Assembly: GCA_947458455.1 (NCBI GenBank)
Contig: CANGYJ010000003.1
Location: forward strand, 62,001-126,000
DNA: 64,000 bases
From: Verrucomicrobiaceae bacterium
GTDB lineage: Bacteria > Verrucomicrobiota > Verrucomicrobiia > Verrucomicrobiales > Verrucomicrobiaceae
Direction of reading: 5' to 3'
Position numbers and translations under genes: made by a program. Position 1 is the stretch's first letter. Each line of letters opens with the position of its first letter. This document shows positions 4,760 through 49,284 of the stretch, in pieces. The notes under the pieces were generated by a model, which was given only the letters and a program-made list of their open reading frames with translations, ran no database searches and was not told the DNA's origin.

Positions 4760-5539
4760 ATGCTCGCAGCCCTCGGCAGACCTTTCTTACGGCTTCTGGG
4801 CGGCATGGGGCGCATGGCGTGCTTCACGGTGCGTTCGTTCGCAGCCGTGACGAAAACTCGAAGACTGCCCCGCAGGCTCCTGCGGGCCATTTTTGAGCAG
4901 GGAACGCGTTGCCTGCCGGTGATTCTCATTGTGGGTATTTTCACCGGTTTGGTGCTCGGACTTCAGGGGCACTATGTTTTGAACCGTTTTGGCTCCGAAA
5001 GCCTGCTCGGAGCACTCGTTTCGCTCAGTCTCGTGCGTGAATTGGGACCAGTGCTCGCGGCTCTGATGCTCGTGGGGCAGGCGGGAAGCGCTCTCGCGGC
5101 GGAAATTGGCATTCAGCGGAATTCCGAACAGATCGCCGCCCTCGAAACGATGGGTGTGAGTAGCGAAGGCTATCTCGTCACGCCGCGATTGCTTGCCGCG
5201 TTGATCGTCTTCCCGATGCAGACGGCACTCTTTGTGCTCATTGGGCTTTACGGTGGTTATTTATCCGGCTCCGCCATGCTCGGGCTTGAGACAGGCGTTT
5301 ATTGGTCCGCCGTCGAAAAGGCCATCGAGGCCCGCGATTTGACGGAGTGCTTTGTCAAAGCGGGCACCTTTGGCCTCATCACCATCGCCATGTGCTCGTA
5401 TCAGGGCTTTTCTGCGCATCTCGGCCAGGGCACCGGCGCACGAGCCGTCTCCGCCGCCACCACACGCGCCGTTGTGCTCTCCTGCGTGCTCGTGCTGGCC
5501 CTCGATGACGTCATCACCTCCTTCTTGCTTCACCGATGA
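4760..5539 (+). CDS. mlaE: MlaE-type phospholipid ABC transporter permease
   Basis: Inner-membrane permease of the Mla system, which moves phospholipids between the inner and outer membranes and keeps the outer leaflet asymmetric. The family signature RELGPVLAALMLVGQAGSAL lies at about residues 94-113, followed by the AAEIG coupling region that contacts the ATPase. About five hydrophobic helices are visible in 259 residues, a normal length. It is the first gene of mlaEFDCA; its stop overlaps the mlaF start in an ATGA junction. No STAS-domain MlaB gene lies next to it, unlike in E. coli. It follows clpC by 18 bases. Confidence 0.93.
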   Translation: MLAALGRPFLRLLGGMGRMACFTVRSFAAVTKTRRLPRRLLRAIFEQGTRCLPVILIVGIFTGLVLGLQGHYVLNRFGSESLLGALVSLSLVRELGPVLAALMLVGQAGSALAAEIGIQRNSEQIAALETMGVSSEGYLVTPRLLAALIVFPMQTALFVLIGLYGGYLSGSAMLGLETGVYWSAVEKAIEARDLTECFVKAGTFGLITIAMCSYQGFSAHLGQGTGARAVSAATTRAVVLSCVLVLALDDVITSFLLHR

Positions 5540-31845: not shown

Positions 31846-34800
31846 ATGAAAACCTTCCTCTCCCGTCTGCTGGCCCTCGTTGGGCTGCTCGCCGCGACGC
31901 CCGCCGTCATTTCCTACGCCGCGCCAGGTGACAAGCTGCTCGATGCCGCCAATCCGGGTCTGGGGCAGCCGAACAATCTCGATCCCTACTTCCTCGACTA
32001 CAACCGGGCACAGGGGATGGCGGCGCTGAGCAATGGCAGTGTGGTCGTGGTCTGGAGCGAGCGGGAAAACCTCGCGGCACCGGTTCCGTCGCCAGATTCG
32101 CCGGATGGGACGAATGGGAAGTTGGAGGCGTGCTTTTTCCGTATTTACAGTGCCACTGGGACGGCGGTGACGGCGGCGACGCGCCCTTATCTGGACATCA
32201 ACTCTGACGGTACGGGGAGTCAGAACACGCCCATGGTGGCGGCGCTGACCGGCGGCGGGTTTGTGATGACGTGGAATTCCGCACTCGGCCCCGGAGACAC
32301 CTTTGACGATGGTTTCGGCTTTGGCGGTGATGCCTGGGCGCGAGTCTATGACAACAGCGGCACGGCGGTAAGCGGCACCTTCCGGGTAAATGACAATGAT
32401 CCCAACGGCGTGCCCGACACGCAGGCGCCGAAAGCTGTGGTGGGCCTCAGCGGCGGCGGTTTTGCGATTCTTTGGGAGGATGGCAATGACAACGCGGCTG
32501 GCCTGGGCGCCACACTTTCGAATACGGATGATTTCTTCCTCCGCGTCTTTGCCGCGAACGGCACGCCTGCGGCGGCGAGCGTCCGGCTTGGCGGTGCGGG
32601 CCAGGATGCCTTCTTCAAGGACTTCCAGTCCTTCGGCGGGGCGGCCAGCGGCCTTGTCGCGCTGTCGAACAACACCGTGGTAATCGGCTGGGCCGTCCGT
32701 GACCAGGCCAACAACGGGACAGGGGTGAGTCCGGATGGCACGGCACCGAATGGCGGCGGCGCTTCCTATTTTCAGGTCTTCAATGCCTCCGGCGCGGCGG
32801 TGAATTCGGCGACTGCACCTTATTTGGACATCAATGCCAACGCCTCTGGCAGCCAGCTCGCTCCGGCGCTGGCAGCGCTCAGTGGCGGCGGTTTTGCCGT
32901 GACATGGAATTCAAACCACAATTCTGATGACGGCGGCAACAGTGATGTCGGCATCGGCGGCAACGGCACCAGCGGTGGTGACACCTATGTGCGTGTTTAC
33001 ACGAATGCAGGCGCGTCCACCAGCAGCACGGTGCGGGTGAATGACCTGCGCACCGCTGACGAAGACGTACCTAGTGCGATCAAACCCTTGACCGATGGCG
33101 GATTCGCCATCGTCTGGAAGGACGACGAGGACAACACGGGCAACACCGACGACTACTTCGCCCGTGCCTACAACGCCAACGGCACGCCGCGCAACCCGAG
33201 CATCATGGTCGGCGGGGCCGCCTCGGACGCCCTCTTTGATGACCTCGACACGAATGGCCATGGAATGGCGGCACTCACCGATGGCGGCTATGCCGTGGCC
33301 ATCCGCGTGCGTGACTCCCTTAACAATGGCACGGGCACCAGCCTTGACGGTGTCGCACCGAATGGCGGTTATTCCGCCGCCGTGCGTGTCTTCAATGCGG
33401 ACGGCACCAGCCGCGCGGGGCCGTTCTTCCCCTATGGCGACATCAATCCTGACTTCAGCGGCAACCAGAACACCCCGCTCGTCTGCGCCATCACTGGCGG
33501 CGGCTTTGCCGTGACCTGGCACTCGAACTTCAACACGAACGACACGGATAACGATCAGCCGGTGCCTGGAGCTCCGAGCACGAACACAGGTGGCGACACC
33601 TACACGCGCATCTTTAACAACAGCGGCGTCGCGTTGCACGCCACGGTGCAGGCGCACGGCGAAGGTGTGGCTGAGCCGACGGGGATCATCGACCAGCAGG
33701 ATCCCTTCGGCATCATCGGCCTCACGGGCGGCAATTACGCCATCGTCGTCCGCGACGACAACGACAACACTAACAATAAGGACGACATCTTCCTGAGCAT
33801 CTTTGAAGGTGTGCCGACGGGGCCCGTCGCCACCGCCCCCACCGTCACCACGGCTGCCCAGAGCGCCGTCACGGCCACCAGCGCCACTCTGGGTGGGAAT
33901 GTGACCTCCGACGGCGGAGCGAGCGTGTCAGAGCGCGGCATCGTCTGGAAGACCTCCACCGGCCCGACCACGGCGGATAACAAGGTGCAAAACGGCAGCG
34001 GCACGGGTGTCTTTAGCGCCACGGTGAACAGCCTTCCCGCAGGCACGACGGTCTTTGTGCGGGCTTATGCCATCAACAGCGTGAATACCAGCTACGGCAA
34101 CGAGATCAGCTTCGCCACGCTCTCACCCACCGTCACGCTCTCCGCCTCGCCCACGAGCATCGCGGAAGCCGCTGGCGTCTCCACCATCACCGCCACGCTG
34201 AGCGCGGCTGTCAGCACCAGCACCACCGTCACGCTCACCCCCTCCGGCACCGCCACGGGCAGTGGCACGGATTACACGCTGGCCTCCACCACCATCACCA
34301 TCCTGGCCAATCAGCTCACCGGCACCACCACCGTCACGGCAGCCCAAGATACCTTGGATGAGGACAACGAAACCGTCATCCTCGACATCACGGGCGTGAG
34401 CGGCGGCAATGGTGCGACGGAGAGCGGCAGCCAGCAGGTCACCGTCACCATCACAGATGATGATGCGGCACCGAGCTTGAGCATCAACGACGTGTCGCTC
34501 ACCGAAGGCAATTCGGGCAGCGCGAACCTCTCCTTCACCGTGACGCTCAGCTCCGCCTCAGGCAAGACCGTGACCGTGAACTACGCCACCGCCGATGGCA
34601 CGGCCACCACCGCAGGCAGTGACTACACCGCCACCAGCGGCACGCTGACCTTCACGCCTGGACAGACGACGAAGACCGTCAGCGTCGCCGTCATTGGCGA
34701 GACCTCGGTCGAGACGAATGAGAGTTTCTTTGTCAACATAAGCAGCGCTTCCAACGCCACCATCAGCGACAATCAGGGCCTGGGCACGATCACCAATGAT

Positions 34801-37800
34801 GATGTGGCGGCGGACATCCCGACGACGCTTTCCTCCGGCACGCTGACCATCAATGCCAGCGGCTCCGCCAACGCTGCGAATGTGGTGCTGCGCTTCGTGG
34901 CTCCGAACCTTTTGGAGATTTTTGATGCCACACGCACCCTCGGAGCGCCTGCGGGCGGTACCCAGGTGAATGCGAATACGGTGCGGGTGCCCGTCTCCAG
35001 CGTCACGAGCATTGTTTTCACCGGCAGTGCCCTCGCGGATGTGTTCACGCTGAACTTTACGGACGGCGACATCTGCCCCACGGGCGGTATCGCGGTGAAT
35101 GGCGGAGCTCCCACGACCTCGCCGGGAGATCTGCTCGTCATAGACGGCGATTTCACCTCTGGCGGTGCCTATGGCACTGGATCGCCGGGAGCGGGCACGC
35201 TCACGCTGGATACGGGCAATACCGTCACCTTCACCGGACTGGAGCCGGTGGATATGAGCGCGGCTAGTTTCACCGATTTCACCATCACCGTCGATCCGAC
35301 GTCTGTTTTCAGCGGAAACGTCATCACCACTGTCGCGGCGGTGGATGCGGGAGTGAACACGGAAGTCACATTTGGCAGCAGCGGACTGGAAAGCGCCAAA
35401 CTGGGCACTGTCACCGGCACGCTGACCATTCTGGGCGACAATGTGGAGCAGGACTATTTCAACCTCCAAGGCCTCGGCAGCGCGATGGCGGGCCATTTCG
35501 TCGTCGATGGCCGCGGAGGTGATTCCGACGTGATCGACATTCACAACACCACTTTTACCCTGCCAGGACTTAACAAGAACCTCACCCTTCGGGCGGATTT
35601 CATTGTGCTGGGCAAGCAGAACCTTCCTACCTTTGCCACGACGGGTAACATTGTGTGCAGTGGCGACATCCTGCTGGAGGCCAATGGCGACAGCACTGGC
35701 CCGGTGCAACCCTGGAACAATGCCACGGCTGTGCCGTCAGCGACGACGGGTACCTGGGGCACGTTGCCCGGCTACGTGATTCAGGGCAGCGTTGCTCCCC
35801 TCTGTACCCTGGGCTCGATTCAGATCAGCGGCACCATCACCAAGAACGCCGGCAACAACGCCACGCTCACCCTCAAAGGAAAGCATAGCATCGGCCTGAT
35901 GAACAACGGGACAGGCATCTCTGGCACCATTCTCACCACGAATAATAAGCTCAACGTGGTGGTGAACTCCGATAGTGACGGGGCCAATGGTGGTGCGGTG
36001 GTGTTCCAGAGCAATTCCAGCATCACCACCCTGGGTGGCGATGTGACCATCGGCGGTGGCTCTGACCCCACCACGATGCCCTCTGTCGGGACGATTGGCG
36101 GGGGCAATACCGCAGGGGTGCTGGTGAACAACATGGGCATCACCACGACCACGGCCGGACCCGCCAGTACGGGGGGCAATGTATCCATCATTGGCAGTGG
36201 CTTCCCCAGCGGCACCACCAACTGCTTTGGCGTCTTCTTTACGGTCAGCAACGGTGCCACACCCGATGCAACCATCAGCACCGGCACTGGCAGCATCAGC
36301 ATTACCGGCACTGGGGGGGGCTCAACGACTTCCTGCCCTGGCGTGCAAATTTCAGGAGCCGCTTCCGCTACGCCTGCTTCCGTTCGCTATGTGCGCCTCA
36401 ACACCAGCACTGGCCCGATCAGTATCACCGGTACTGCCACAGTGGGTACCAATAATGGGGTGATGCTGGCTTCGAATGTGGACATCTCCTCCACAGGCGC
36501 GGCACCCATCAGCATCACGGGTACGGGCACCGGCACTCCCTCCGGAGTTGTGGGCTACGGCATTTTGAGCTTCCCGTCATCAACTGGCAGTGCCACCAGC
36601 GTTGTCAGTAGCACTGGAGGCACCATCACCCTCAAGGCGGACACCATGAACCTCGTGGGTAACCTGGGTGGCACGACTACGATCTCCTCAAACGCCGTTG
36701 GAGGCAGCATTGCGGTGAAGCAAAACAGCGCCACCCGCCCCATCGACATGGGCTTGGCGGTTGACACGGTTACCACCTTGGGAATCTCGACGGCTGAGTT
36801 TGCTAGGTTGAATGCCCCGACGATTACCATGGGTGACAGCAACAGCGGCACGATCAACGTGAGCGCTGTGATCGCCCCAGCGACCAGTGTTGCTACTCTG
36901 GCCCTGGCGAACAACACCACCTTTGCGGCCACCGGCGGCTTCACCTCCACCATCTCCAGCGCCTCGAATTTCACCAAAATGACTGTGGTCGGTGCGGTGG
37001 ACATCAACACCAACGCTACGCTCGCCATGAACGCTAGTGGCTATATTTGGAATGGCACGGACGTCTTCACCATCCTCGACAACGACGCGGCGGACGCCAT
37101 CACCGGCACCTTCACTGGCCCCACGTTGACGAATTTCCTCGGCAGCGCCCTCACCGCGCAGCAGAGCTACAGCGGCGGCACGGGCAATGACCTCGTCTTC
37201 TCGGCTCCGCCCTCGGCGAATGCGGATCTCGCGGCACTGACCACCACGGCGGGTGCTCTCTCACCGGTCTTTGGCGCGGGCACCATCACCTACAGCACAC
37301 CGAGCGTGCCAAATGCCACCGCCACCGTCACCGTCACGGCCACGCGGGCGCAGGCGAATGCCACGCTGGAGGCTCGCGTGAATAGCGGGGCCTTCACCAG
37401 CATCACCAGCGCCACGCCCAGCGGTGCTTTGGCCCTCAATGTGGGGGCGAATACCCTCCAGGTACGTGTCACCGCGCAGGATGGCACCACACAGAAGACC
37501 TACACCATCAATGTCACCCGCAGCGCCCCTCCGGGAGCGCCCACGATCACCTCGGCGGCTCCAGCTCGCGGCCTGATCGGCGGTGGCAGCAGCATCGTCA
37601 TCACCGGCACGGACTTCACCGGAGCCACCGGGGTGAATTTCGGCAGCACCGCCGCCACCACCTTCACGGTGGATAGCCCCACGCAGATCACCGCCACGCT
37701 TCCTGTCGGCACGGCAGGTATTTTCGATGTCTCCGTCGTCACCGGCCTCGGCACCGGCACGGGCTCCGGCCTCTTCTACTACTTCACCACCAGCGGCAGC

Positions 37801-40800
37801 ACGCCTGCCATGGCGGCCTCCAAAGTGGACATCTTCACGCCGAACGGCGCGGGCAAAGTGCTCCCCGGTGCCCCCATCCAGTATCGCACCCTCATCGCCA
37901 ACACCGGCGGCGGCAATGCCACCCTCGTGGACTTCGCCGATGCCATCCCGGCGAACACCACGCTCGTCCCCGGCTCCGTGAACGTCTCCCCGCTGGCCGA
38001 GGACGATGTTTACACCACCATCGTCAATACCCAGCTTGCCGCAGGCACCCCCACCGTGCTCTCTGGCCCGCTTGTCACCAGCGCGGTGAAGGTCACGGCC
38101 AATGACCGCGAGTTTTTGACCGATACCTTCACCCTCTCCGCCTCGGACAGCACTTCGGCGAATGGCGGGAGCGTTGTCGTGTCCTCCGACGGTTCCTTCA
38201 CCTACCTGCCGCCAGCGGGTTTCGTCGGCGCGGATTCCTTCACCTACACGATCCGCGATGACGGCACGGACAGCACCGCCGGCAATGCGGACGACCTCAC
38301 CGGCATCGGCACCGTGGTCATCAACGTCACTGAAGCCGACACCGTCCTCGCGGGCACGCAAAAGGTCTGGTACATCGACAACAGCTACGCCGGAGCGAAT
38401 GGTGTGGCCAACGGCACCTCCGCGCGGCCTTTCACCTCCACGACCAACGTCTCAGGAGCCACCGGCCCGGATGCCGTGGGTGATACACTCCATGTGGCTA
38501 CGGGGAGCTCGAATTATGGATTCTTCGCCTTCCTTCTCGATCAGACGCTTTGGGGGGCGAATGATGCTCTCGTTCTCAATGGGGTGACGTTGGCGGCGGC
38601 CACAGCCAAGCCTGTTTTTGAAAATGCGGGCGGTGCTGCTATCACCCTCAGCGGCGCGACCGGAACCAATACCATTCGCGGCCTTTCTGTGACCAACAGC
38701 GCCATCTCCTCCAACAACGGCAGTGGGGCATTTGGCACGTTGAACATTAGCAATACCACCATGACGGGCACCAGCCGCAAACTGGACCTCGCGAACGGCA
38801 CCGTGAATGGCACGATCGACAGCCTCACCGCTACCAACGGCGTCAACGGCGTCAGCCTCACCGGTGTCAATGGCACCCTTACCATCACCACGGGTGCCAT
38901 TAGCGGCACCAGCGGGGATGACTTCTTCGTCAGCGGCGGCACCGCCGTGATCAGCTACGGCGGCACCATCACCAACAGCGCGGGCCGCTCTGTCAATGTC
39001 ACTAGCAAGACCAGCGGCTCGGTGACCTTCAGCGGAGCCATTACCGATAGCGCTGGCAGCACCGGCATCTCCCTCACGAGCAACACGGGCTCCACCATCA
39101 CCTTCAGTGGCGGTTTGAGCCTCACGACTACCACCAACGCGGCCTTCACCGCCACCGGCGGCGGCACGGTGAATGTCACGGGGGCCAATAACACGCTCAC
39201 CACCACGACCGCAGCCGCCTTGAACGTGACCAACACCACCATCGGTGCCAGTGGCCTCACCTTCCGCAGCATCTCCTCCAATGGCGGCACCGGCAATGGC
39301 ATCATCCTCGACACCACCGGCACCAGCGGCGGCCTCACCGTCACGGGTGATGGCACCAACACCTCCCCCGGCGGCAACAGCAGCGGCGGCACCATCGCCA
39401 ACAAGAGCGGTGCAGACGGCAACAACGCCCAGGGCATCGGCATTTACCTCAACAACACGCGTGATGTCGTGCTGCGCCGCATGACCATCAGCGGCGTGAA
39501 TCAAAACTTCGGCATCCGCGGCTTTGGCGTCACGAATTTCACCCTGCAATACTGCACCGTCGGCTCTCCTACGCCCACGAACGTCGGCTCCATCGCGGCG
39601 AATCTGCAAGGCACCAACAACGGCAGCATCGGCGAAGGTGCCATCTACTTTGGCAATCAAACCGACGGCATCCTCGGCCTCACCGGCACCGCCAGCATCG
39701 ATAACTGCTTCATCAGTGCCGGACGCACGGATAACATGCAGCTCAGCAACGGCGGCGGCACGCTCAACCGCCTCTCGATCACCAACAGCACCTTCGGCTA
39801 CAACTTCACCACCACGCCAGCGGCCAATGCCGCGCTCACCGTCGTGGCACGCCGTGCCAGCAGCGGAAACACCGTGCTGAACTCCACCGTCACCGGCTGC
39901 ACCTTCGTCGGCACACCGGGCAATGCGGCCAACTTCACCGGTCAGGAGCCCACCACCACGCTCGGCATCGCGATGGATACGATCTTCCAAAACAACACCA
40001 TCACCAACAACCACCCGCAGAACAACCTCGGTGGCTGCAACATCACCGTCGCCGGATTCAGCACCACCACCTTCAACATCTCGAACAACAGCATGCGCGA
40101 CGCCAACGGCAGCGCCATCACCCTGCAACTGGGAGCACCCGGTGCTGGCTCCACCGTCGCCACCGCACTCAGTGGCACCATCAATAACAACATCATCGGC
40201 GTGACCGGTGTGGCTGGCTCCGGCTCGGCCTCAGGCAATGGCATCTTCTTCTCCTTTGCCGACAACACCACCGCGCCCAAGGGCCAGGTGAACGTGGCCG
40301 TCACCAACAACATCATCCGCAACTACAGCGGCAACGCGGGTATCTACGCCGACAACACCGGCGGCAACTACGACCTCAACTTCACCTGCACCGGCAACAC
40401 CGCTGCCGAGCCCGGCCCAGGAGCCGCTGCGGGCCTTGCCTTGGCCGCAGGCTCCCCCACCAGCAACGATGACATCGACATCTTCGCCCGCATCACCGGC
40501 AACGACTTCAGCACTGGTGACCCAAACAATGGGAACGACATCCTCATCGGTGGTGGTGCCAACGGAGCCTCCACCATCAAGCTCGCGGGTGCCGGCGGCC
40601 CGGCGGACGGCGTCGCCTTTGCCTCCCTCGCAGCGGTGCAGACCTTCCTGTTCAACAACAACAACACCGCCGGCACCGTCGCCAGCGCCTACGTCGATCT
40701 TCCCGCCACCGTCGCCATCTTCCGCGGTGCTGGCGCCACGAACCCGCCGCTGCCTTCCACGCTGCTTTTTGCCGAAGAACTGCCGCCCATGCCGGTGAAG

Positions 40801-43800
40801 GACCACAGCGACCTCAATGACGTCATTGAAGTCAGCGCCGTCAAAACGGTCAAAAAGGCCCCCAAAGCCCCCCAAGGCCGTTTTGCGCCTCAAACGGCCC
40901 TCACGCAGGCCACACTCGAAAAACTCGCCGCCCAGGCCATTTCCCGCTGGGAAGCCGCTGGCCTCACCCCCGCGCAAAAACAGCGCCTCCAGGCCCTCCG
41001 CTTCGAGCTTTCCGACCTCAACACCCTCCACCTCGGCCAGGCCAGCGGTGATCTCATCCAGATCAGCCGCACCGCCGCCGGAAACGCCTGGTTCATCGAC
41101 GAAACGCCCAGCGACGACGCCGAATTTGAACGTAGAACGGGTTTTCAACCCGTTTCAGCAGACAACGGACTGAAAGTCCGTTCTACGATCCAAGGCGTCG
41201 ATCTTCTCACGACCCTCATGCACGAAATGGGCCACTCCCTCGGCCTGCCGGACCGTTACGACCTGCGCAGCCGCCGCAGCATCATGTACGGCCACCTCAG
41301 CACCGGCGAGCGCCGCCTGCCAGCGCCGGGCGAGGCCGCAGGAGCCACGCCCTTCACCGACGACACCAGCCGCTTCCTCGGCGCTCCCATTGCCATTGGC
41401 GATCTGCCTCCGGGCAAGAGCGTGACCATCGTCGGCACCGTTTTGGTGAATGATCCGGCCAATACCCAGCTCATCAGCAGCCAGGGCACCGTCAGCGGCG
41501 GAAACTTCAGCAACGTCCTCACCGACGACCCCGCCTTCGCCGGAGCCGCCAATCCCACCACCACACCGGTCGAGCGTCCGGATGCCACCGTCGTCTCCAT
41601 CGTCGCTGGCACCTCGCCCACGAATGCCGCCAACGTCTCCTGGACCGTCACCTTCAGCACCGGCGTGAGCAATCTCGCCACCTCGCACTTCGCCCTCGCC
41701 AATACCGGCCTCACCGCACCTTCCATCACCAGTGCCGTCGCCACCGGGCCGCAGCCGGCCACCGCCTGGACTGTCACCGCCTCCACCGGCACCGGCAGCG
41801 GCACCCTGGGCCTGAACATGGCCAATGACGCCGGCGCACTCAGCCACGATGTCACGAACCTTCCCTTCACCGGCCAGGTTTACACCATCGACAAGATCGC
41901 CCCTGTCTTCTCCAGCATCACGCGGCAGACACCTTCGGCTCAGAACACGAATGCCGACACCCTCGTCTTCCGCGCCACCTTCAGCGAGACCGTCGTCGGC
42001 GTCGATGCCGCCGATTTCACCGTCAGTGGCACCACCGCTACCATTAGCGGCATCACTGGCACTGGCCCCTATGACATCACCCTCAGTGGCGGAAACCTCG
42101 CCAGCCTTGACGGCACCGTCGGCCTCGCCCTCGCTGGCGGTCAAAACATCGCTGACGCCGCTGGCAACGCTCTCCCCGGCACCGCACCCGCCACCAACGA
42201 GACCTACACCGTCGATAACGCCGCTCCGACCGTCGCCATCACCAGCACCACGGGCAATCCGGCCCCGAATGCCGTCATCCCCGTCACCGTGACCTTCAAT
42301 GAATCCGTCACCGGTTTCGACCTCACCGACATCACCGTCGCAGGCGGCACGAAGACCAACTTCGCAGGCACCGGAGCCATCTACACCTTCGACCTCACTC
42401 CGAGCGGCCCCGGCGTCACCGTCACGGCCGATGTGGCCGGTAGCGCGGCTCAAGACGCCGCTGGAAACAACAACACCGCCGCCACGCAGTTCACCCGCAG
42501 CATCGTCGATGCCGTCAGCATCGCCGCCACCACGCCTACCGCCGTCGAAGATGGAGCCACCGGCCTCTACACCTTCACCCGTGGCAGCAGCACCGGTGCC
42601 CTCACCGTCAGCTTCCAGCTCGATGCCTCCAGCACCGCCACAGCGGCCACGGACTTCAATCTGACCTCCAGCGGCACGCTCACCTTCACGGCAGGCACCG
42701 GCGCAGGCACCATCGTCATCCCGAACGGCCAGCTCACCGCCACCGTCACCCTCACCGCCCTCGTCGAGACCCCCAATCCCGCCGAAGCCGCCGAAACCGC
42801 CCGCCTCAATGTCGTCGCCGCCAGCGGCTACGTCGCCGGATCACCCGCGAACGCCACCGTCACCATCACCGAGAACGGCCTCCTTGTCACCACCACGGCG
42901 GACAGCGGCACCGGCTCGCTGCGCCAGGCCGTTTTGAATGCCAACAGCATCGCCGGCACGGACACCATCACCTTCCAGGCGGGAGTCACGACCGTGACTC
43001 TGACCTCGGCGGAACTGGGTATCAGCAGCAATGTCACCATTGATGGGGGATCCTCCGGCGTCACCGTCACCCGCGATATCGGTGCCCCCGCCTTCCGCAT
43101 CTTCAACGTCTCCAGTGGTGCGACGAGCCTGAAAAAGCTCACAATATCCAATGGAAGTGCTTCAGCCGATAGCGGTGGTGGCATCCTTACCGGAAGCACA
43201 ACCCAGTTGAGTATCGATTCCTGCACCATCGAATCGAACACAGCAGGTGTAGTCGGCGGCGGCATCCTGACCGCCTCAACAACGACCTTGATCACCAATA
43301 GCACGATCTCCCTCAATACCGCCAGCACGAGCTCGGGAGGTGGCATTGCCGTGGCAACCAACGGCACGGTGGACTTGGTAAACTGCACGCTCTCTGGCAA
43401 CGTGACGGCTGGCGGCAGCGGCAGCGGCGGAGGCGGCGGATTGCGGCTTTTCGCAGCCAACACTCCCACGGTGACCATCACCAACTGCACGATCACAGCC
43501 AACCGCGCTGTCGGAGGCGAGGGCGGGGGCATCTCGCGCGGAAACGGCACCTTGAACTTACGAAACACGATCGTGGCAGGTAACTTCTCCGCAGCCTCCC
43601 CGAGCACGACCCCGAATGACGTCAACGGTGCGGTAGCTTCAACAAGCTCCTTCAACCTCATCGGTATCAACACCAACATGACGGGCATCACCAACGGGAC
43701 CAACAACAACCAAGTGGGTTCCGGCACCGCTATCGCTCCCCTGCTCGGTCCTTTGCAGAACAACGGAGGCTTCACTCAGTCCTGCGCCCTGCTCGCTGGC

Positions 43801-46800
43801 AGCCCCGCCCTGAACGCAGGCAGCAACGCTTTGCTCCCCGTGGACACCTTCGACCTCGATGGCGACCTCAATACGACCGAAGTCATCGACGTGGACCAGC
43901 GCGGCCCCGGCTTCACCCGCGCCATCGGCACGGTCGATATCGGCGCCTTTGAGCTGCAAAAATCCGTCTCCATCGGCAACCTCGCCGCCATCAGCGAAGG
44001 CAATTCCGGCACGACGAACTTCGTCTTCACCATCACCCGCACCGGCGACACCTCCGGCGCAGTGGCCATGACCTACACCGTCAGCGGCGCGGCGGTGAAC
44101 GGCACCGACTTCATCGGCGGCACCCTGCCCACCGGCACCGCCACCATCACCAATGGCAATGCCACCACCACCGTGACCATCCCGGTGAGCGGCGATACCT
44201 TGGCGGAACTGGATGAGGCCTTCATCGTGACTCTCACGGCCCCAGACAATGGCTACGTCGTCGCCGGCGCACCTGCCACCAGCACGATCACCAACGACGA
44301 CACGCTCACCGTCACGATCAACCAAGCCTCCGGCCAGGCCGATCCTGCCCGCACCAGCCCAATCAACTTCACTGTGGTGTTCAGCGAGCCGGTCACCGGC
44401 TTCGTGACAGGCGATGTGACCGTCGGCGGAGCCGCCGCGCCCACCACTGGCACCGTGACGGAGATCGCCCCGAACAACGGCACGACCTTCAATGTGGCCG
44501 TCAGCGGCATGACCGCCCAGGGCACCGTCACTGCCAGCGTGGGCAGCAATGTGGCCCTCAGCGCCGGTGGCGCGGGCCATGCCGCTGCCACCAGCACGGA
44601 TAACAGCGTCGTCTTTGACAGCATCGCTCCTACAGCGGGCATCGTCGTCGCGGATACCACGTTGCTCTTCGGCGAGACCTCACTCGTCACCATCACCTTC
44701 TCTGAGGCCGTAACCGGCTTTGACAATGCCGACCTCACCATCCCGAACGGCACGCTGACCCCTGTCAGCAGCGGTGACGGCATCACCTGGACCGCCACCT
44801 TCACCCCGAGTGCGGATACCGAGGCCGCCACGAACGTCATCGCCCTCGCCATGACCGGCGTCGCCGATGCGGCAGGCAATGCGGGCACCGGCACCACGAA
44901 CTCGAACAACTTCGTCATCGATACCCTGCGCCCCACCGTCACGCTGAGCAGCCCCGTGGCCGATCCAGCACCAAACGTGGCCTTCACCCTCACGGCTACC
45001 TTCAGTCAAGCCGTGACCGGCTTCACCTTCGGAGACATCGCCACCACCAATGCGGTGATTGGCTCTTTCAACGCAGTCTCATCCACAGTCTATACGCTGG
45101 TGCTCACACCGAACGGCTCAGGCCTGCCCGTCACAGCCAATGTCGCTGCGAATACCGCAGTAGATGGCTCAGGCAATGGCAACACGGCAGCGGCACCATT
45201 CAGCCGGGCCACTTACACGCCGCCCACCATCTCCTACGCCTATGGTGCGCCGCAGGTGGCGATCAGCGGCTCTGCCTCGCTCACCTACACCGTGATCAAC
45301 CCCAATCCGACAGCTGCGCTCACTGGCCTGGCCTTCACGGATGCGCTGCCGCCCGGACTCGCCATCGCCACGCCCAACGGCGAGGTGAACAACCTCGGTG
45401 GCACCCTCACGGCCACCGCCGGCACCAATACGATCAGCCTCTCTGGCGGCACCTTGGCCGCCGGAGCCACCGCGACGCTGACCGTGAATGTGACCGGCAC
45501 CAGCATCGGGGTGAAGGGCGGCATGCTTACCGTACTCACCAGCGCCGAGGCACCGTTGAACACGACCCCAGGCTTTGTTCCGCCTCTAGTTTCCATTTCC
45601 GGGATCAGCACCTTCACTCACGACCGCCGGTTCATCACCGGCACGGTCGGTGCGGGTGATCCCACGCTGACGGGCCGCATGAACCGGAACGGCGTTGCCT
45701 CAGTGCCCGGCGCAAACAAAGTCTTCCCTGGCATGCTAACCACAAGCGGTGCCCGGCGCTACGATTCCCACACCATCACCAACACCACGGGTGCGGCCCA
45801 GGATGTGAATGTGTGGTTCAATACTTCCACTGGCAACAATGGTTTTGTCGTCGCTTACCTTGGCAGCTTTGATCCTGCCAATCCTGCCACGAACTACCTG
45901 GCTGATGCCGGCAGTAGTTTCCCCAGTGCTGCCAGCTTTGGCTTCACCATCCCAGTGGGCGGCACGGTGGTTCTGGTCGTCCATGAGGTGCTTTCGACGG
46001 GCTTTGACTATGCCCTGGGCATCAATACCCCGCTGCCCGCAGGTGCCATCTCCTCCATCCCCGCCACCTTGGCTGCGCTGCCTACCATTGAGGTCATCGA
46101 GAGGTCCGTCTCCATCGCCGACCTCGCCGCCATCAGTGAAGGCAACTCCGGCACCACAAACTTCGTCTTCACCATCACCCGCACCGGTGCCACCACGGGC
46201 AGCGTCGCCATGACCTACACCGTGGGCGGAGCCGCTGTGAACGCCGCTGACTTCGGTGGCACCCTGCCTACTGGCACCGCCACCATCGCGGATGGCAGCG
46301 CCACCACCACCGTGACCATCCCCGTCAGTGGGGATGTCTTGGCGGAGCTGGATGAAGCCTTCACGGTCACCCTCAGCGCCCCCAACAACGGCTACCTCGT
46401 CACCGGCGCACCCGCCACCAGCACCATCACCAATGACGACACCTTGACCGTCACCCTCAATCAGGCCGTCGCCCAGCTTGATCCCACGAATGCCACCACG
46501 ATCAACTTTACCGCTGTCTTCAGCGAGGCCGTGACCGATTTCGATGACGCTGCCGATGTGACCCTCACCGGCACCGCAGGTGCTACGTCGGCCTCCATCA
46601 CCGGCGGCCCGACGACTTACAATGTCGCCGTCAGCGGCATGACAGGCTCTGGCACCGTGATCGCCAGCATCCCGGCCGCTTCCGTGATCAGCGCCGGTAG
46701 CGCCGCCAACGCCGCCTCCACCAGCACGGACAACTCCGTGACCTACGACAACGTCGCGCCTGCTCTCGCCAGCGCCATCGCGATCAGCGATACCGCACTC

Positions 46801-49284
46801 AAGATCGGCGATACCGCCACAGTCACCTTCACCTTCACCGAAGCCGTCACCGGCTTCGACTCCGCCGACCTGACCGTGCCGAATGGCAGCATCCCGAGCG
46901 TCAGCAGTGGCGACGGCGGCATCACCTGGACGGGCACATTGACGCCAACAGCGAGCATCGAGGATGCGTCCAACCTCATCACCCTCGCTCTCACCGGCGT
47001 AGCCGACATCGCGACCAACCCCGGCATCGGAATGGCCGACAGCCCGAACTACGCCATCGACACCGTGGCTCCGACCGTCGCCTTGACCAGCGCAGTGCCG
47101 AACCCGACTCCGAATGTGCCGATTGCCGTCACCGCTCAGTTCAGTGAGACGGTCGTCGGTTTCGTCGCGGGCTCGGTGACGGTGACCAATGCGACCGTCA
47201 GCAGCTTCGTCGCGGTCGATGGAGACACCTACACCTTTAACCTGAACCCCACCGGCTCAAACTTGATCGTCACGGCTGACATCACCACTGGAGCCACGCA
47301 GGACGTCGCCGGGAATAACAACATCGCCGCCACGCAGTTCGCCCGCACGATCAATGCTGCGCCGGAGATCACCGTGCCTCTTGGTGCAGGCGGCAGTGGT
47401 CCTCCGGTGCTCTACGGCATTTCCAATGGCTACGGCGTAGCCGCGGATAACCAGATTTACGAAATCAATCCCGCTACGGGCACCATCTCCAATGCGCGTC
47501 AGGTGACCTTGGCTGGCTTCACTGTTACGAATTCCCAATCACTGGCCGCCCATCCGACCACAGGTGTCCTTTATGGCGTGATTCAGACAACGGGGGGGGC
47601 ATCGGCGCGGCGTCTGGTCACCATCGACCCCGCCACCGGCGTCGCGACCCAAATCGGACCTTTCACTGGCGGACTGCAATTTGCCACCCTCGCCTTCAAG
47701 CCGGATGGCACGCTGATCGGCGGCACGGGACAAGGTGGAACCACTCCCGAGACACTCTACACCCTCTCGACGGTGGATGCCTCGGCCACGCTTTTGCTCG
47801 CCTTGGGCAACGGCGCGGATGGTGAAACCATCGCCTTCCACCCGAACGGTCTGCTTTACCACTCCTCGGGAAATAGCAATGCACTCTTTGAAAGCGTGAA
47901 CCTGACCACCAACGTGGTGACTCCCATCGGCTCGGCTTCCGGCGAGATGTTTGCCATGGGTTTCCACACACCGACCGCGACGATGCTGGGATCGGACATT
48001 TCCGGAAACATGTTCTCGATCGACATCGCCACCGGTGCCCGGACGCCCATTGGCCCCATCAACGGCCCGGATGACAATCGCGGTCTGGCTCTCGCCGCTG
48101 CTCCTGGTGTTCCCCTCCTCCGTCTGACGGGCGTCACCACGGGCATCAATAGCCCCATCGCCACCGTGAGTGACGCGGAGACCGCCGCAGGCTCCCTCGT
48201 CGTCACCGCCACCACGGTGCCACCCGGCATCAATATCACCAACATCGTCAACAACGCCGGTGCCGTCACCGCCGATGTGAGCGCTGACGCAGGCATGACC
48301 GCTGGCATCTACACCCTCGTGCTGAATGTCTTCGACGGAGCCATCAACACCTCCGCCACCCTCACCATCGAGGTCAATAACGCCCCCACCGTCGTCGCCC
48401 CTGGCATCCCGGACCAAACAGCCGTCGTCGGACTGCCCGCCGTCGTCGTGCCACTCGGCGCTCATTTCGCGGATGTGGACCTCGACACCCTCACCTTCAG
48501 CGTCACCGGCAATACGGATCCCACCAAGGCCACCGCCGTCCTCACCGGCGGCACCAGTGTGACCCTCACCGCCCTCGCCTTTGGTCAAACCGATGTCACC
48601 ATCCACGCCAACGACAACAATGGCGGCACCGTCACGGATACCTTCCGCGTCTTTGCCCGCACGATCGATCCGACCGCCACCATGCCTGCCACGCCGGTCG
48701 GTGGCTGGCCATACAGCCAGGTGAATGGCTTCTTCAACATTCAGGTGCCCGTGCAGAACACCACCGCCAATGCGATCAACGGTTTGAGGCTCAGAGTGAA
48801 CGTCTCCGCCTTCCTCGGAGCACATCCTTCCCTGCGCCTATGGAATGCCACCCGCACTATCGCCCCGGGCATTTTCGAGATCGACTACCCGTATCCCGTC
48901 GCCTCGTTGGCCACGGTGCAATTCTCGCTCAGCTTCTACACTAGCACTCGTCTGATGCCGAATCCCTTTGCTCCGGTGCTGACGGTGATCGCCGTGAATC
49001 CCTCGATCGTGCCAGGGCCGCTGCCCGCCGGACTCGTCGTCTTGCCCTCCGTCATCCGCTTCACTGCTGCGGGTCTGAGAGTGCTGGAATGGGACAGCAG
49101 CTACGGCAAATGGTATCGCATCTACTACAATAACGGCCTCGATCCGAATCAGTGGCTGGAATGTACCACGCCGATCCAGGCTGGCAGCAACCGCCAGCAG
49201 TGGCAGGATAATGGGGCACCCTTCACACGGGATACTCCTGTCGGGGCTCGCTTCTATATCATCACTGAAATTCCCTCCCCTTGA
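31846..49284 (+). CDS. Giant secreted multidomain surface protein (5812 residues)
   Basis: Signal peptide (cleavage near residue 25), then in order: three about 205-residue cycles of GGFAVTW-type propeller blades (about 55-655), a fibronectin-like domain (665-760), two Calx-beta domains (762-987), a long repetitive beta-rich passenger (990-1788), a cadherin-like sandwich (1791-1895), an IPT/TIG domain (1897-1982), DUF11- and cadherin-like segments, a right-handed beta-helix stretch (about 2170-2950), and a metzincin-like unit with HEMGHSLGLPD at 3126-3136 and a following SIMYG met-turn. The tail has Ig-like and Calx-beta modules (the last Calx-beta at about 4755), a choice-of-anchor-Q-like helix (3681-4040), a DUF4394-like propeller (about 5185-5424) and a final region with RVLEWDSSYGKWYRIYYNNG. 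Likely an adhesin or extracellular enzyme scaffold. A palindromic element (41132-41186) is read through in frame beside the protease motif. Domain limits are approximate. Confidence 0.9.
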   Translation: MKTFLSRLLALVGLLAATPAVISYAAPGDKLLDAANPGLGQPNNLDPYFLDYNRAQGMAALSNGSVVVVWSERENLAAPVPSPDSPDGTNGKLEACFFRIYSATGTAVTAATRPYLDINSDGTGSQNTPMVAALTGGGFVMTWNSALGPGDTFDDGFGFGGDAWARVYDNSGTAVSGTFRVNDNDPNGVPDTQAPKAVVGLSGGGFAILWEDGNDNAAGLGATLSNTDDFFLRVFAANGTPAAASVRLGGAGQDAFFKDFQSFGGAASGLVALSNNTVVIGWAVRDQANNGTGVSPDGTAPNGGGASYFQVFNASGAAVNSATAPYLDINANASGSQLAPALAALSGGGFAVTWNSNHNSDDGGNSDVGIGGNGTSGGDTYVRVYTNAGASTSSTVRVNDLRTADEDVPSAIKPLTDGGFAIVWKDDEDNTGNTDDYFARAYNANGTPRNPSIMVGGAASDALFDDLDTNGHGMAALTDGGYAVAIRVRDSLNNGTGTSLDGVAPNGGYSAAVRVFNADGTSRAGPFFPYGDINPDFSGNQNTPLVCAITGGGFAVTWHSNFNTNDTDNDQPVPGAPSTNTGGDTYTRIFNNSGVALHATVQAHGEGVAEPTGIIDQQDPFGIIGLTGGNYAIVVRDDNDNTNNKDDIFLSIFEGVPTGPVATAPTVTTAAQSAVTATSATLGGNVTSDGGASVSERGIVWKTSTGPTTADNKVQNGSGTGVFSATVNSLPAGTTVFVRAYAINSVNTSYGNEISFATLSPTVTLSASPTSIAEAAGVSTITATLSAAVSTSTTVTLTPSGTATGSGTDYTLASTTITILANQLTGTTTVTAAQDTLDEDNETVILDITGVSGGNGATESGSQQVTVTITDDDAAPSLSINDVSLTEGNSGSANLSFTVTLSSASGKTVTVNYATADGTATTAGSDYTATSGTLTFTPGQTTKTVSVAVIGETSVETNESFFVNISSASNATISDNQGLGTITNDDVAADIPTTLSSGTLTINASGSANAANVVLRFVAPNLLEIFDATRTLGAPAGGTQVNANTVRVPVSSVTSIVFTGSALADVFTLNFTDGDICPTGGIAVNGGAPTTSPGDLLVIDGDFTSGGAYGTGSPGAGTLTLDTGNTVTFTGLEPVDMSAASFTDFTITVDPTSVFSGNVITTVAAVDAGVNTEVTFGSSGLESAKLGTVTGTLTILGDNVEQDYFNLQGLGSAMAGHFVVDGRGGDSDVIDIHNTTFTLPGLNKNLTLRADFIVLGKQNLPTFATTGNIVCSGDILLEANGDSTGPVQPWNNATAVPSATTGTWGTLPGYVIQGSVAPLCTLGSIQISGTITKNAGNNATLTLKGKHSIGLMNNGTGISGTILTTNNKLNVVVNSDSDGANGGAVVFQSNSSITTLGGDVTIGGGSDPTTMPSVGTIGGGNTAGVLVNNMGITTTTAGPASTGGNVSIIGSGFPSGTTNCFGVFFTVSNGATPDATISTGTGSISITGTGGGSTTSCPGVQISGAASATPASVRYVRLNTSTGPISITGTATVGTNNGVMLASNVDISSTGAAPISITGTGTGTPSGVVGYGILSFPSSTGSATSVVSSTGGTITLKADTMNLVGNLGGTTTISSNAVGGSIAVKQNSATRPIDMGLAVDTVTTLGISTAEFARLNAPTITMGDSNSGTINVSAVIAPATSVATLALANNTTFAATGGFTSTISSASNFTKMTVVGAVDINTNATLAMNASGYIWNGTDVFTILDNDAADAITGTFTGPTLTNFLGSALTAQQSYSGGTGNDLVFSAPPSANADLAALTTTAGALSPVFGAGTITYSTPSVPNATATVTVTATRAQANATLEARVNSGAFTSITSATPSGALALNVGANTLQVRVTAQDGTTQKTYTINVTRSAPPGAPTITSAAPARGLIGGGSSIVITGTDFTGATGVNFGSTAATTFTVDSPTQITATLPVGTAGIFDVSVVTGLGTGTGSGLFYYFTTSGSTPAMAASKVDIFTPNGAGKVLPGAPIQYRTLIANTGGGNATLVDFADAIPANTTLVPGSVNVSPLAEDDVYTTIVNTQLAAGTPTVLSGPLVTSAVKVTANDREFLTDTFTLSASDSTSANGGSVVVSSDGSFTYLPPAGFVGADSFTYTIRDDGTDSTAGNADDLTGIGTVVINVTEADTVLAGTQKVWYIDNSYAGANGVANGTSARPFTSTTNVSGATGPDAVGDTLHVATGSSNYGFFAFLLDQTLWGANDALVLNGVTLAAATAKPVFENAGGAAITLSGATGTNTIRGLSVTNSAISSNNGSGAFGTLNISNTTMTGTSRKLDLANGTVNGTIDSLTATNGVNGVSLTGVNGTLTITTGAISGTSGDDFFVSGGTAVISYGGTITNSAGRSVNVTSKTSGSVTFSGAITDSAGSTGISLTSNTGSTITFSGGLSLTTTTNAAFTATGGGTVNVTGANNTLTTTTAAALNVTNTTIGASGLTFRSISSNGGTGNGIILDTTGTSGGLTVTGDGTNTSPGGNSSGGTIANKSGADGNNAQGIGIYLNNTRDVVLRRMTISGVNQNFGIRGFGVTNFTLQYCTVGSPTPTNVGSIAANLQGTNNGSIGEGAIYFGNQTDGILGLTGTASIDNCFISAGRTDNMQLSNGGGTLNRLSITNSTFGYNFTTTPAANAALTVVARRASSGNTVLNSTVTGCTFVGTPGNAANFTGQEPTTTLGIAMDTIFQNNTITNNHPQNNLGGCNITVAGFSTTTFNISNNSMRDANGSAITLQLGAPGAGSTVATALSGTINNNIIGVTGVAGSGSASGNGIFFSFADNTTAPKGQVNVAVTNNIIRNYSGNAGIYADNTGGNYDLNFTCTGNTAAEPGPGAAAGLALAAGSPTSNDDIDIFARITGNDFSTGDPNNGNDILIGGGANGASTIKLAGAGGPADGVAFASLAAVQTFLFNNNNTAGTVASAYVDLPATVAIFRGAGATNPPLPSTLLFAEELPPMPVKDHSDLNDVIEVSAVKTVKKAPKAPQGRFAPQTALTQATLEKLAAQAISRWEAAGLTPAQKQRLQALRFELSDLNTLHLGQASGDLIQISRTAAGNAWFIDETPSDDAEFERRTGFQPVSADNGLKVRSTIQGVDLLTTLMHEMGHSLGLPDRYDLRSRRSIMYGHLSTGERRLPAPGEAAGATPFTDDTSRFLGAPIAIGDLPPGKSVTIVGTVLVNDPANTQLISSQGTVSGGNFSNVLTDDPAFAGAANPTTTPVERPDATVVSIVAGTSPTNAANVSWTVTFSTGVSNLATSHFALANTGLTAPSITSAVATGPQPATAWTVTASTGTGSGTLGLNMANDAGALSHDVTNLPFTGQVYTIDKIAPVFSSITRQTPSAQNTNADTLVFRATFSETVVGVDAADFTVSGTTATISGITGTGPYDITLSGGNLASLDGTVGLALAGGQNIADAAGNALPGTAPATNETYTVDNAAPTVAITSTTGNPAPNAVIPVTVTFNESVTGFDLTDITVAGGTKTNFAGTGAIYTFDLTPSGPGVTVTADVAGSAAQDAAGNNNTAATQFTRSIVDAVSIAATTPTAVEDGATGLYTFTRGSSTGALTVSFQLDASSTATAATDFNLTSSGTLTFTAGTGAGTIVIPNGQLTATVTLTALVETPNPAEAAETARLNVVAASGYVAGSPANATVTITENGLLVTTTADSGTGSLRQAVLNANSIAGTDTITFQAGVTTVTLTSAELGISSNVTIDGGSSGVTVTRDIGAPAFRIFNVSSGATSLKKLTISNGSASADSGGGILTGSTTQLSIDSCTIESNTAGVVGGGILTASTTTLITNSTISLNTASTSSGGGIAVATNGTVDLVNCTLSGNVTAGGSGSGGGGGLRLFAANTPTVTITNCTITANRAVGGEGGGISRGNGTLNLRNTIVAGNFSAASPSTTPNDVNGAVASTSSFNLIGINTNMTGITNGTNNNQVGSGTAIAPLLGPLQNNGGFTQSCALLAGSPALNAGSNALLPVDTFDLDGDLNTTEVIDVDQRGPGFTRAIGTVDIGAFELQKSVSIGNLAAISEGNSGTTNFVFTITRTGDTSGAVAMTYTVSGAAVNGTDFIGGTLPTGTATITNGNATTTVTIPVSGDTLAELDEAFIVTLTAPDNGYVVAGAPATSTITNDDTLTVTINQASGQADPARTSPINFTVVFSEPVTGFVTGDVTVGGAAAPTTGTVTEIAPNNGTTFNVAVSGMTAQGTVTASVGSNVALSAGGAGHAAATSTDNSVVFDSIAPTAGIVVADTTLLFGETSLVTITFSEAVTGFDNADLTIPNGTLTPVSSGDGITWTATFTPSADTEAATNVIALAMTGVADAAGNAGTGTTNSNNFVIDTLRPTVTLSSPVADPAPNVAFTLTATFSQAVTGFTFGDIATTNAVIGSFNAVSSTVYTLVLTPNGSGLPVTANVAANTAVDGSGNGNTAAAPFSRATYTPPTISYAYGAPQVAISGSASLTYTVINPNPTAALTGLAFTDALPPGLAIATPNGEVNNLGGTLTATAGTNTISLSGGTLAAGATATLTVNVTGTSIGVKGGMLTVLTSAEAPLNTTPGFVPPLVSISGISTFTHDRRFITGTVGAGDPTLTGRMNRNGVASVPGANKVFPGMLTTSGARRYDSHTITNTTGAAQDVNVWFNTSTGNNGFVVAYLGSFDPANPATNYLADAGSSFPSAASFGFTIPVGGTVVLVVHEVLSTGFDYALGINTPLPAGAISSIPATLAALPTIEVIERSVSIADLAAISEGNSGTTNFVFTITRTGATTGSVAMTYTVGGAAVNAADFGGTLPTGTATIADGSATTTVTIPVSGDVLAELDEAFTVTLSAPNNGYLVTGAPATSTITNDDTLTVTLNQAVAQLDPTNATTINFTAVFSEAVTDFDDAADVTLTGTAGATSASITGGPTTYNVAVSGMTGSGTVIASIPAASVISAGSAANAASTSTDNSVTYDNVAPALASAIAISDTALKIGDTATVTFTFTEAVTGFDSADLTVPNGSIPSVSSGDGGITWTGTLTPTASIEDASNLITLALTGVADIATNPGIGMADSPNYAIDTVAPTVALTSAVPNPTPNVPIAVTAQFSETVVGFVAGSVTVTNATVSSFVAVDGDTYTFNLNPTGSNLIVTADITTGATQDVAGNNNIAATQFARTINAAPEITVPLGAGGSGPPVLYGISNGYGVAADNQIYEINPATGTISNARQVTLAGFTVTNSQSLAAHPTTGVLYGVIQTTGGASARRLVTIDPATGVATQIGPFTGGLQFATLAFKPDGTLIGGTGQGGTTPETLYTLSTVDASATLLLALGNGADGETIAFHPNGLLYHSSGNSNALFESVNLTTNVVTPIGSASGEMFAMGFHTPTATMLGSDISGNMFSIDIATGARTPIGPINGPDDNRGLALAAAPGVPLLRLTGVTTGINSPIATVSDAETAAGSLVVTATTVPPGINITNIVNNAGAVTADVSADAGMTAGIYTLVLNVFDGAINTSATLTIEVNNAPTVVAPGIPDQTAVVGLPAVVVPLGAHFADVDLDTLTFSVTGNTDPTKATAVLTGGTSVTLTALAFGQTDVTIHANDNNGGTVTDTFRVFARTIDPTATMPATPVGGWPYSQVNGFFNIQVPVQNTTANAINGLRLRVNVSAFLGAHPSLRLWNATRTIAPGIFEIDYPYPVASLATVQFSLSFYTSTRLMPNPFAPVLTVIAVNPSIVPGPLPAGLVVLPSVIRFTAAGLRVLEWDSSYGKWYRIYYNNGLDPNQWLECTTPIQAGSNRQQWQDNGAPFTRDTPVGARFYIITEIPSP
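36313..36320 (+). repeat. Poly-G tract (G8) in the giant gene
   Basis: Eight consecutive G in codons near residue 1490. Currently in frame; a one-base change would end or shift the reading frame. Confidence 0.9.
41132..41186 (+). repeat. Paired GTAG-headed palindrome (REP/BIME-like) inside the giant gene
   Basis: A 55-base element that begins GTAGAACGG and ends CCGTTCTAC. Each half folds into its own hairpin (AACGGGTT-AACCCGTT and AACGGACT-AGTCCGTT) and the two face each other, as in bacterial interspersed mosaic elements. The GTAG foot is the tetranucleotide bound by REP-associated tyrosine transposases. It is translated in frame as residues about 3096-3114 (RRTGFQPVSADNGLKVRST), 12 residues before the HExxH motif. 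No such transposase gene is in the window. Confidence 0.8.
47592..47599 (+). repeat. Poly-G tract (G8) in the giant gene
   Basis: Second run of eight G, near residue 5249 in the C-terminal propeller. In frame as sequenced. Confidence 0.9.

Follow-up and report, generated by a model that had tools for sequence, protein, structure and literature searches.

The window analysed here, a stretch of 64,000 nt from a Verrucomicrobiaceae bacterium (assembly GCA_947458455.1, contig CANGYJ010000003.1, positions 62,001 to 126,000), contains a 5812-aa open reading frame that carries a short palindromic doublet within a metzincin-like region. The features are as follows.

31846..49284, + strand: 5812-aa ORF containing the doublet, with a Calx-beta domain near the N-terminus (Pfam on pieces)
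40888..41352, + strand: metzincin-like region in which the insertion lies; the model covers 155 residues (Pfam, alignment, AlphaFold)
41131..41187, + strand: in-frame peptide RRTGFQPVSADNGLKVRST, residues 3096-3114, a low-confidence loop in the model
41132..41154, + strand: arm 1, GTAGAACGGGTTTTCAACCCGTT, GTAG head and stem with the 3-nt loop TTC (read directly, pattern match)
41155..41163, + strand: spacer of 9 nt (read directly)
41164..41186, - strand: arm 2, inverted, AACGGACTGAAAGTCCGTTCTAC, with four pair-preserving changes relative to arm 1
41221..41253, + strand: HEMGHSLGLPD, starting at residue 3126, 12 residues after the end of RRTGFQPVSADNGLKVRST

Direct reading of the sequence resolves positions 41132-41186 into two inverted 23-nt GTAG-headed hairpins. 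The pattern GTAGAACGGNNTTTCANNCCGTT fits either arm with 0 mismatches and is matched twice in the window, while 100 window shuffles yielded 0 matches, and a chance palindrome is rejected on this basis. Arm 2 departs from arm 1 at four stem positions with pairing kept at all of them (GGGTT/AACCC against GGACT/AGTCC). Under DNA parameters the 71-nt strand has a folding energy of -18.8 kcal/mol (z = -5.72), which 0 of 200 shuffles equalled. The arrangement is that of a REPIN, with GTAG at the unpaired end of a hairpin whose loop is 2-4 nt and with two such hairpins inverted, GTAG outside, around a short spacer. The element is a GTAG-type REP doublet (REPIN/BIME), as the first-pass annotation had proposed from its inverted GTAG-headed hairpins, and the placement given there, in frame and 12 residues ahead of HEMGHSLGLPD, is likewise correct. 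Flanking direct repeats (a target-site duplication, as in a classical MITE) were not apparent by eye at the junctions inspected.

The doublet is read through just upstream of HEMGHSLGLPD, which we take to be a zinc-binding motif and whose H, E, G, H, G and D residues are invariant across a 25-row alignment. The Peptidase_M10 match in the region falls below the Pfam cut-off (22.2 against 24 bits). The homologous region is matched at 25 places in 5 of 56 genomes, window copy included. RRTGFQPVSADNGLKVRST is absent from all 24 of the other matches (24/24), so that residues 3096-3114 are indeed lacking from the homologues found, and the insertion place corresponds to a variable linker. Because these homologues share only 34-46% identity, an exact empty site for the window copy, by which the recent insertion inferred in the first-pass annotation could be judged, was not obtained. 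In an AlphaFold model built on the 25-row alignment (mean pLDDT 86) the single segment below 50 is construct residues 82-98, which nearly coincides with RRTGFQPVSADNGLKVRST (residues 82-100) and precedes the HEMGH helix (residues 106-117). The peptide is thereby predicted, as a low-confidence loop, to form a disordered loop in the metzincin-like domain.

Further copies were found in the same genome (28 contigs, 96% complete), and the element is not unique there. The TTTTC pattern (3-nt loop) at ≤3 mismatches gave 11 matches representing 9 sites, against 1 in the reversed control. Four sites have ≤1 mismatch, namely the window doublet, C6:311145-311197, C9:176086-176135 and a single arm at C12:57899, and all four lie within genes of 909-5812 aa as called by a self-written dicodon gene caller trained on this genome. 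The five further sites, with 2-3 mismatches and four of them GTGG-headed, comprise one genic site (173 aa), one overlapping gene ends and three intergenic; at ≤2 mismatches 4 of 6 TTTTC sites are wholly genic. A sister subfamily, TTTTCC (4-nt loop TTCC), gave 50 matches at ≤3 mismatches versus 0 in the reversed control. Its 29 sites at ≤2 mismatches divide into 15 wholly genic (L412 among them on the strength of a weak 78-aa call), 6 overlapping gene ends (two of them at a RAYT gene) and 8 intergenic; four more sites, three of them intergenic and the other genic, have 3 mismatches and do not enter this count. Within this genome the two subfamilies do not differ significantly in how often they are genic (p = 0.12). 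All genic copies examined read in the host frame, and the hosts include, besides PSD1 proteins, an SbcC-like ATPase, a glycosyltransferase and an oxidoreductase fusion. Separately, two single TTCG-loop arms (L408, at 2653 and 6628) lie in one 1603-aa gene (DUF7133, FG-GAP).

The genome has 12 Y1_Tnp (PF01797) matches, two being fragments of a single frame. The RAYT gene at C5:352905-353567 (Pfam E = 9.4e-8) has TTTTCC doublets on both sides, and the suggestion that the genome would hold a RAYT for the element was thus borne out for the sister repeat, whose loop is 4 nt, but, in the loci scanned, not for the 3-nt loop of the window's doublet. Homologues of the C5 RAYT at E ≤1e-20 occur in 45 of 56 genomes. 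A hairpin scan of 30 fetched loci found TTTTCC on both sides in the C5 RAYT and its three nearest homologues (75% identity in G005, 65% in G050 and 83% in G026) and did not find it in the other 26 of 30, and no RAYT flanked by a 3-nt-loop TTTTC arm was seen in the loci scanned, which are part of all Y1_Tnp matches. The same RAYT may move both subfamilies. The frame of the C5 RAYT (L352 1039-1863, G000:C5) traverses the palindromes at both of its ends (MHRRTGFPTRS... and ...VERVFQPVLQ), so that the transposase itself may carry repeat-encoded residues. Two more RAYT-like loci, L350 (G000:C7) and L353 (G000:C4), are accompanied by palindrome families of their own (GTGATGCGGGC- and GTGGTGCAG-type heads), and each frame has a stop within its homology match.

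Across genomes the TTTTC pattern at ≤2 mismatches is present in 13 of 56 (own included), with 64 matches versus 7 in the reversed control. The relatives were sampled as 28 stretches from 9 of the 12 other genomes, one stretch (G050) belonging to another family of the order. Among their 30 sites, counted with the omission of five single 2-mismatch matches in G016, G020 and G040, 26 are wholly genic, 3 overlap gene ends and 1 is intergenic, at a coding fraction of 0.89; since several sites are orthologous or near-duplicates, these represent fewer than 30 independent events. Inverted pairs, which span 49-93 bp, are genic in 21 of 21 cases versus 5 of 9 for singles (Fisher p = 0.005). The generalization in the first-pass annotation that such elements are nearly always intergenic therefore fails for the TTTTC subfamily, both in these relatives and at the 4 of 6 genic sites of this genome, while its expectation that the peptide type would recur in other verrucomicrobial proteins is upheld. 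Both open frames are used in each arm, giving peptides of RTGFQPV or VERVFNPF type from one and of NGLKTRST or ERVENPFY type from the other.

Two loci from two species, L055 and L068, each carry a pair of arms spanning 93 nt end to end, and the spacer between the arms is translated as ordinary protein sequence (FGPVIKIM.EGIT); 11 of 49 spacer bases differ between the two loci, and 1 of 44 arm bases. At L077 (G026:C56, ~4981-5036) the element and the 12 bases to its left are those of L053 and L059 and the right flank is different, so that either the contig is chimeric or recombination took place at the repeat.

An exact TTTTC scan of wider genome contigs returned 101 stretches, and among the 80 listed are Verrucomicrobiaceae, Phycisphaerae and other Planctomycetota, Desulfobacterota-type MAGs, Bacteroidota and others. 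Six record groups were called with a simpler self-trained caller and a stricter 6-nt margin. Wholly genic sites number 1 of 13 in Phycisphaerae GZL_FP_2, 1 of 11 in Desulfatirhabdium, 1 of 4 in Phycisphaerales UBA2421 and 0 of 6 in Spirosomataceae, so that these four MAGs of other phyla (coding 74-87%) combine to 3 of 34 wholly genic, 12 overlapping gene ends and 19 intergenic. The Verrucomicrobiaceae MAG P8_D7_6 has 3 of 7 sites genic and Brevifollis 4 of 5. Genic placement is thus the pronounced pattern in the Prosthecobacter/Brevifollis-type group to which the window belongs, though not in all verrucomicrobial MAGs. Tandem arrays of related GTAG hairpins occur at L138 (5334-5746) and L164 (Planctomycetota MAG K_DeepCast_35m), in L138 inside an 874-codon open frame.

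The three other close TTTTC sites of this genome have counterparts at the same position in other species, the C9 site being common to three genomes and the C6 and C12 sites to two each, and for this reason the copies in these genes are not recent. Within the C9 gene (16 best loci aligned) the TTTTC pair is present in 3 loci and a different GTAG palindrome pair, beginning at the same base, in 2; the remaining loci have a 7-residue linker of FTDLTPK type (4), a 12-residue linker (3) or other linkers of 15-17 residues (4, one of them palindromic without GTAG). All five palindrome carriers lack the short linker residues. In the C6 gene (30 loci aligned) an ungapped LMNxxFxxPQA-type linker is found in 24 loci, the two TTTTC carriers are without it, two loci have a GTGG-headed doublet and two have other variants. 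Because that GTGG-headed doublet is a clean addition of 60 nt without loss, linker replacement is not general. The single arm in the C12 gene occurs in two genomes, and the linker there is equal in length to that in many others. The idea that most C12 linker sequences are themselves hairpins was dropped, stems of ≥6 being found in 3 of 14 rows against 88 of 2473 windows elsewhere, with two of the three stem-bearing rows being the element itself. Nine orthologue comparisons, three of them within the C9 trio, show 9 differences in 374 arm positions, 21 in 104 spacer positions and 572 in 3779 flank positions. The sites were found by the arm pattern, which favours clean arms, and ~26 arm differences would be expected after allowing for this (17 arms treated as independent). 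The slower change of arms than of flanks is not predicted by pure tolerance.

The most concentrated set of genic copies lies in the PSD1 (DUF1553) family, for which PF07587 has 60 matches in 56 frames of this genome. Alignment of 49 loci from these 56 frames (the 30 top-ranking loci, 17 others and two carriers already known) places a TTTTCC doublet (A) in the linker after MSxTYR in seven paralogues, its second arm diverged in L409, and an unrelated GTAG doublet (B, GTAGTTCGG-type heads) in the same linker of L420, L430, L431, L432, L435 and L441. The left junctions of A fall at four offsets and those of B are nearly alike. Where paralogues free of an element have residues such as VTPELLEKD, the carriers have a shortened stretch or none. 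PSD1 genes make up 3.3% of coding DNA but hold 7 of the 15 genic TTTTCC sites, an enrichment of P ~2e-7 if all coding DNA is assumed equally tolerant. On a tree built without the linker the carriers are scattered, the A label requiring 7 changes and the B label 5, with the B carriers L431 and L432 as sisters (98/86); the tree, with a median end branch of 0.8 changes per column, has 21 of 46 inner branches well supported and 17 open, and is for that reason not decisive. In two further paralogues (L479, L419) the same linker is filled by short tandem TTCTCAG-like repeats.

These observations are most economically explained by a REP doublet that a RAYT serves and that disordered linkers tolerate, and we place at about 0.75 the probability that the window copy is a RAYT-type REP doublet which inserted into the variable linker ahead of the zinc-binding helix and is tolerated there. 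RAYT enzymes (HUH/Y1 transposases) would, as published work proposes, move such doublets as single-stranded DNA; one would have come to rest in the linker ahead of the metzincin-like domain's zinc-binding helix, where it would be tolerated because it is stop-free in the occupied frame, keeps that frame and forms a predicted disordered loop. Such in-gene landings would be common in this group and repeated in the same linkers, native linker residues being missing at comparable sites. We infer that a RAYT moved the window copy, that it persists through tolerance and not through function, and that the linker residues were lost in the act of insertion, although a later in-frame deletion may also account for the apparent replacement. 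Recurrence in the same linkers may reflect either targeting or survivorship.

We judge it an even chance that survivorship alone suffices, with insertion everywhere, persistence only of in-frame copies in disordered linkers, and decay of the intergenic copies of an older subfamily while the genic ones were held by the reading frame. The uniform host-frame reading of the genic copies examined agrees with this, as do the genic share of 26 of 30 in the relatives, close to their coding fraction, and the confinement of all 21 pairs to genes as against 5 of 9 singles. However, in MAGs of other phyla this pattern of arms is wholly genic at only 3 of 34 sites, and the PSD1 clustering would demand a single linker of exceptional tolerance. 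That clustering, with all seven genic PSD1 copies of TTTTCC in one linker and carriers scattered on the tree, is what would be expected if the machinery preferred certain linkers or older palindromes and swapped out native codons, recurrence then reflecting targeting plus survival. The C9 gene points the same way: species differ there in which of two unrelated GTAG palindromes starts at one and the same base, and either palindrome is accompanied by missing linker residues. Yet the four offsets of the A-type junctions leave no single target base, an all-tolerant linker would yield the same picture through survival and later in-frame deletion would mimic replacement, and we consider targeted replacement rather unlikely. 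Its broader form, in which RAYT-served REP doublets of this Verrucomicrobiaceae group are linker-replacing elements that re-enter particular disordered loops, swap families at the same base and diversify the loops of paralogues, seems to us equally doubtful.

Lower still in probability is a small number of insertions spread by gene duplication or gene conversion. The sites common to two or three species, the sister carriers L431 and L432 and the nearly uniform B junctions are consistent with it, but A needs as many changes as it has carriers, and near-identical elements sit in paralogues separated by long end branches. For PSD1, spread by duplication alone is not favoured on a tree that is only partly resolved. 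Comparably improbable is co-option of the hairpin or peptide for a host function (mRNA structure, linker or interaction motif) and its retention by selection. The low divergence of arms relative to flanks and spacers, below the ~26 differences expected, speaks for this, as does the preservation of pairing by all four changes in window arm 2. Against it, discovery by arm pattern favours clean arms and a third of the comparisons come from one trio, while the use of both open frames means that the peptide is not fixed and most orthologues are without the element. An assembly artefact might be entertained for an assembly of this fragmentation and completeness, but the shuffles gave no match and the arms recur in other assemblies, contigs of Brevifollis gellanilyticus NBRC 108608 among them, which makes artefact or chance exceedingly improbable.

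Tolerance of a RAYT-served doublet, the reading preferred here, extends what is described for known systems. In Di Nocera et al. (2013, PMC3733652), 24 families of GTAG REPs are treated, most REPs being intergenic; intragenic ones are known, most of them in Opitutus terrae (Verrucomicrobia), and REPs lie near the same recB site in two Xanthomonas species. Since intragenic members are described there, genic location is not taken to exclude REP membership. The doublets here resemble these GTAG REPs and REPtrons in the GTAG tag, short-loop hairpins, head-outside doublets and, for the 4-nt-loop sister, a repeat-flanked RAYT; unlike them, as far as that account goes, the present subfamily is mostly genic, is repeated in one linker of many paralogues and is accompanied at some sites by missing native residues. 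REPINs, as described by Bertels and Rainey (2011, PMC3116915), likewise consist of two inverted REPs and a spacer forming a hairpin and are associated with RAYTs, but are distributed in extragenic space, whereas the doublets here lie in frame inside genes. Rickettsia palindromic elements (PMC10969869, PMC3733652) are also readable palindromes in frame in unrelated genes; compared by description, they measure ~150 bp (PMC10969869) versus 49-93 bp here, and the account, in the passages available, gives no RAYT link. Recurrence in one linker, linker replacement and the occurrence of two palindrome families at one base are apparently new, and a literature search outside which most subscription papers and all preprints fell returned nothing on the TGFQPV peptide or on DUF1553 palindromes.

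In PMC3116915 the mechanism by which REPINs spread was called central but unresolved. Where an intragenic copy has element-free homologues, protein alignment leaves the product of insertion readable, and such cases are numerous here. In one gene two unrelated palindrome pairs start from a common base, in another a single linker shows both a clean addition and an apparent replacement, and in a single genome the PSD1 linker has 13 carriers, divided between two families. Mobile DNA is thus seen supplying disordered loops to ordinary proteins, and if the linker-replacing reading were true, mobile DNA would diversify the loops of large paralogous protein families.
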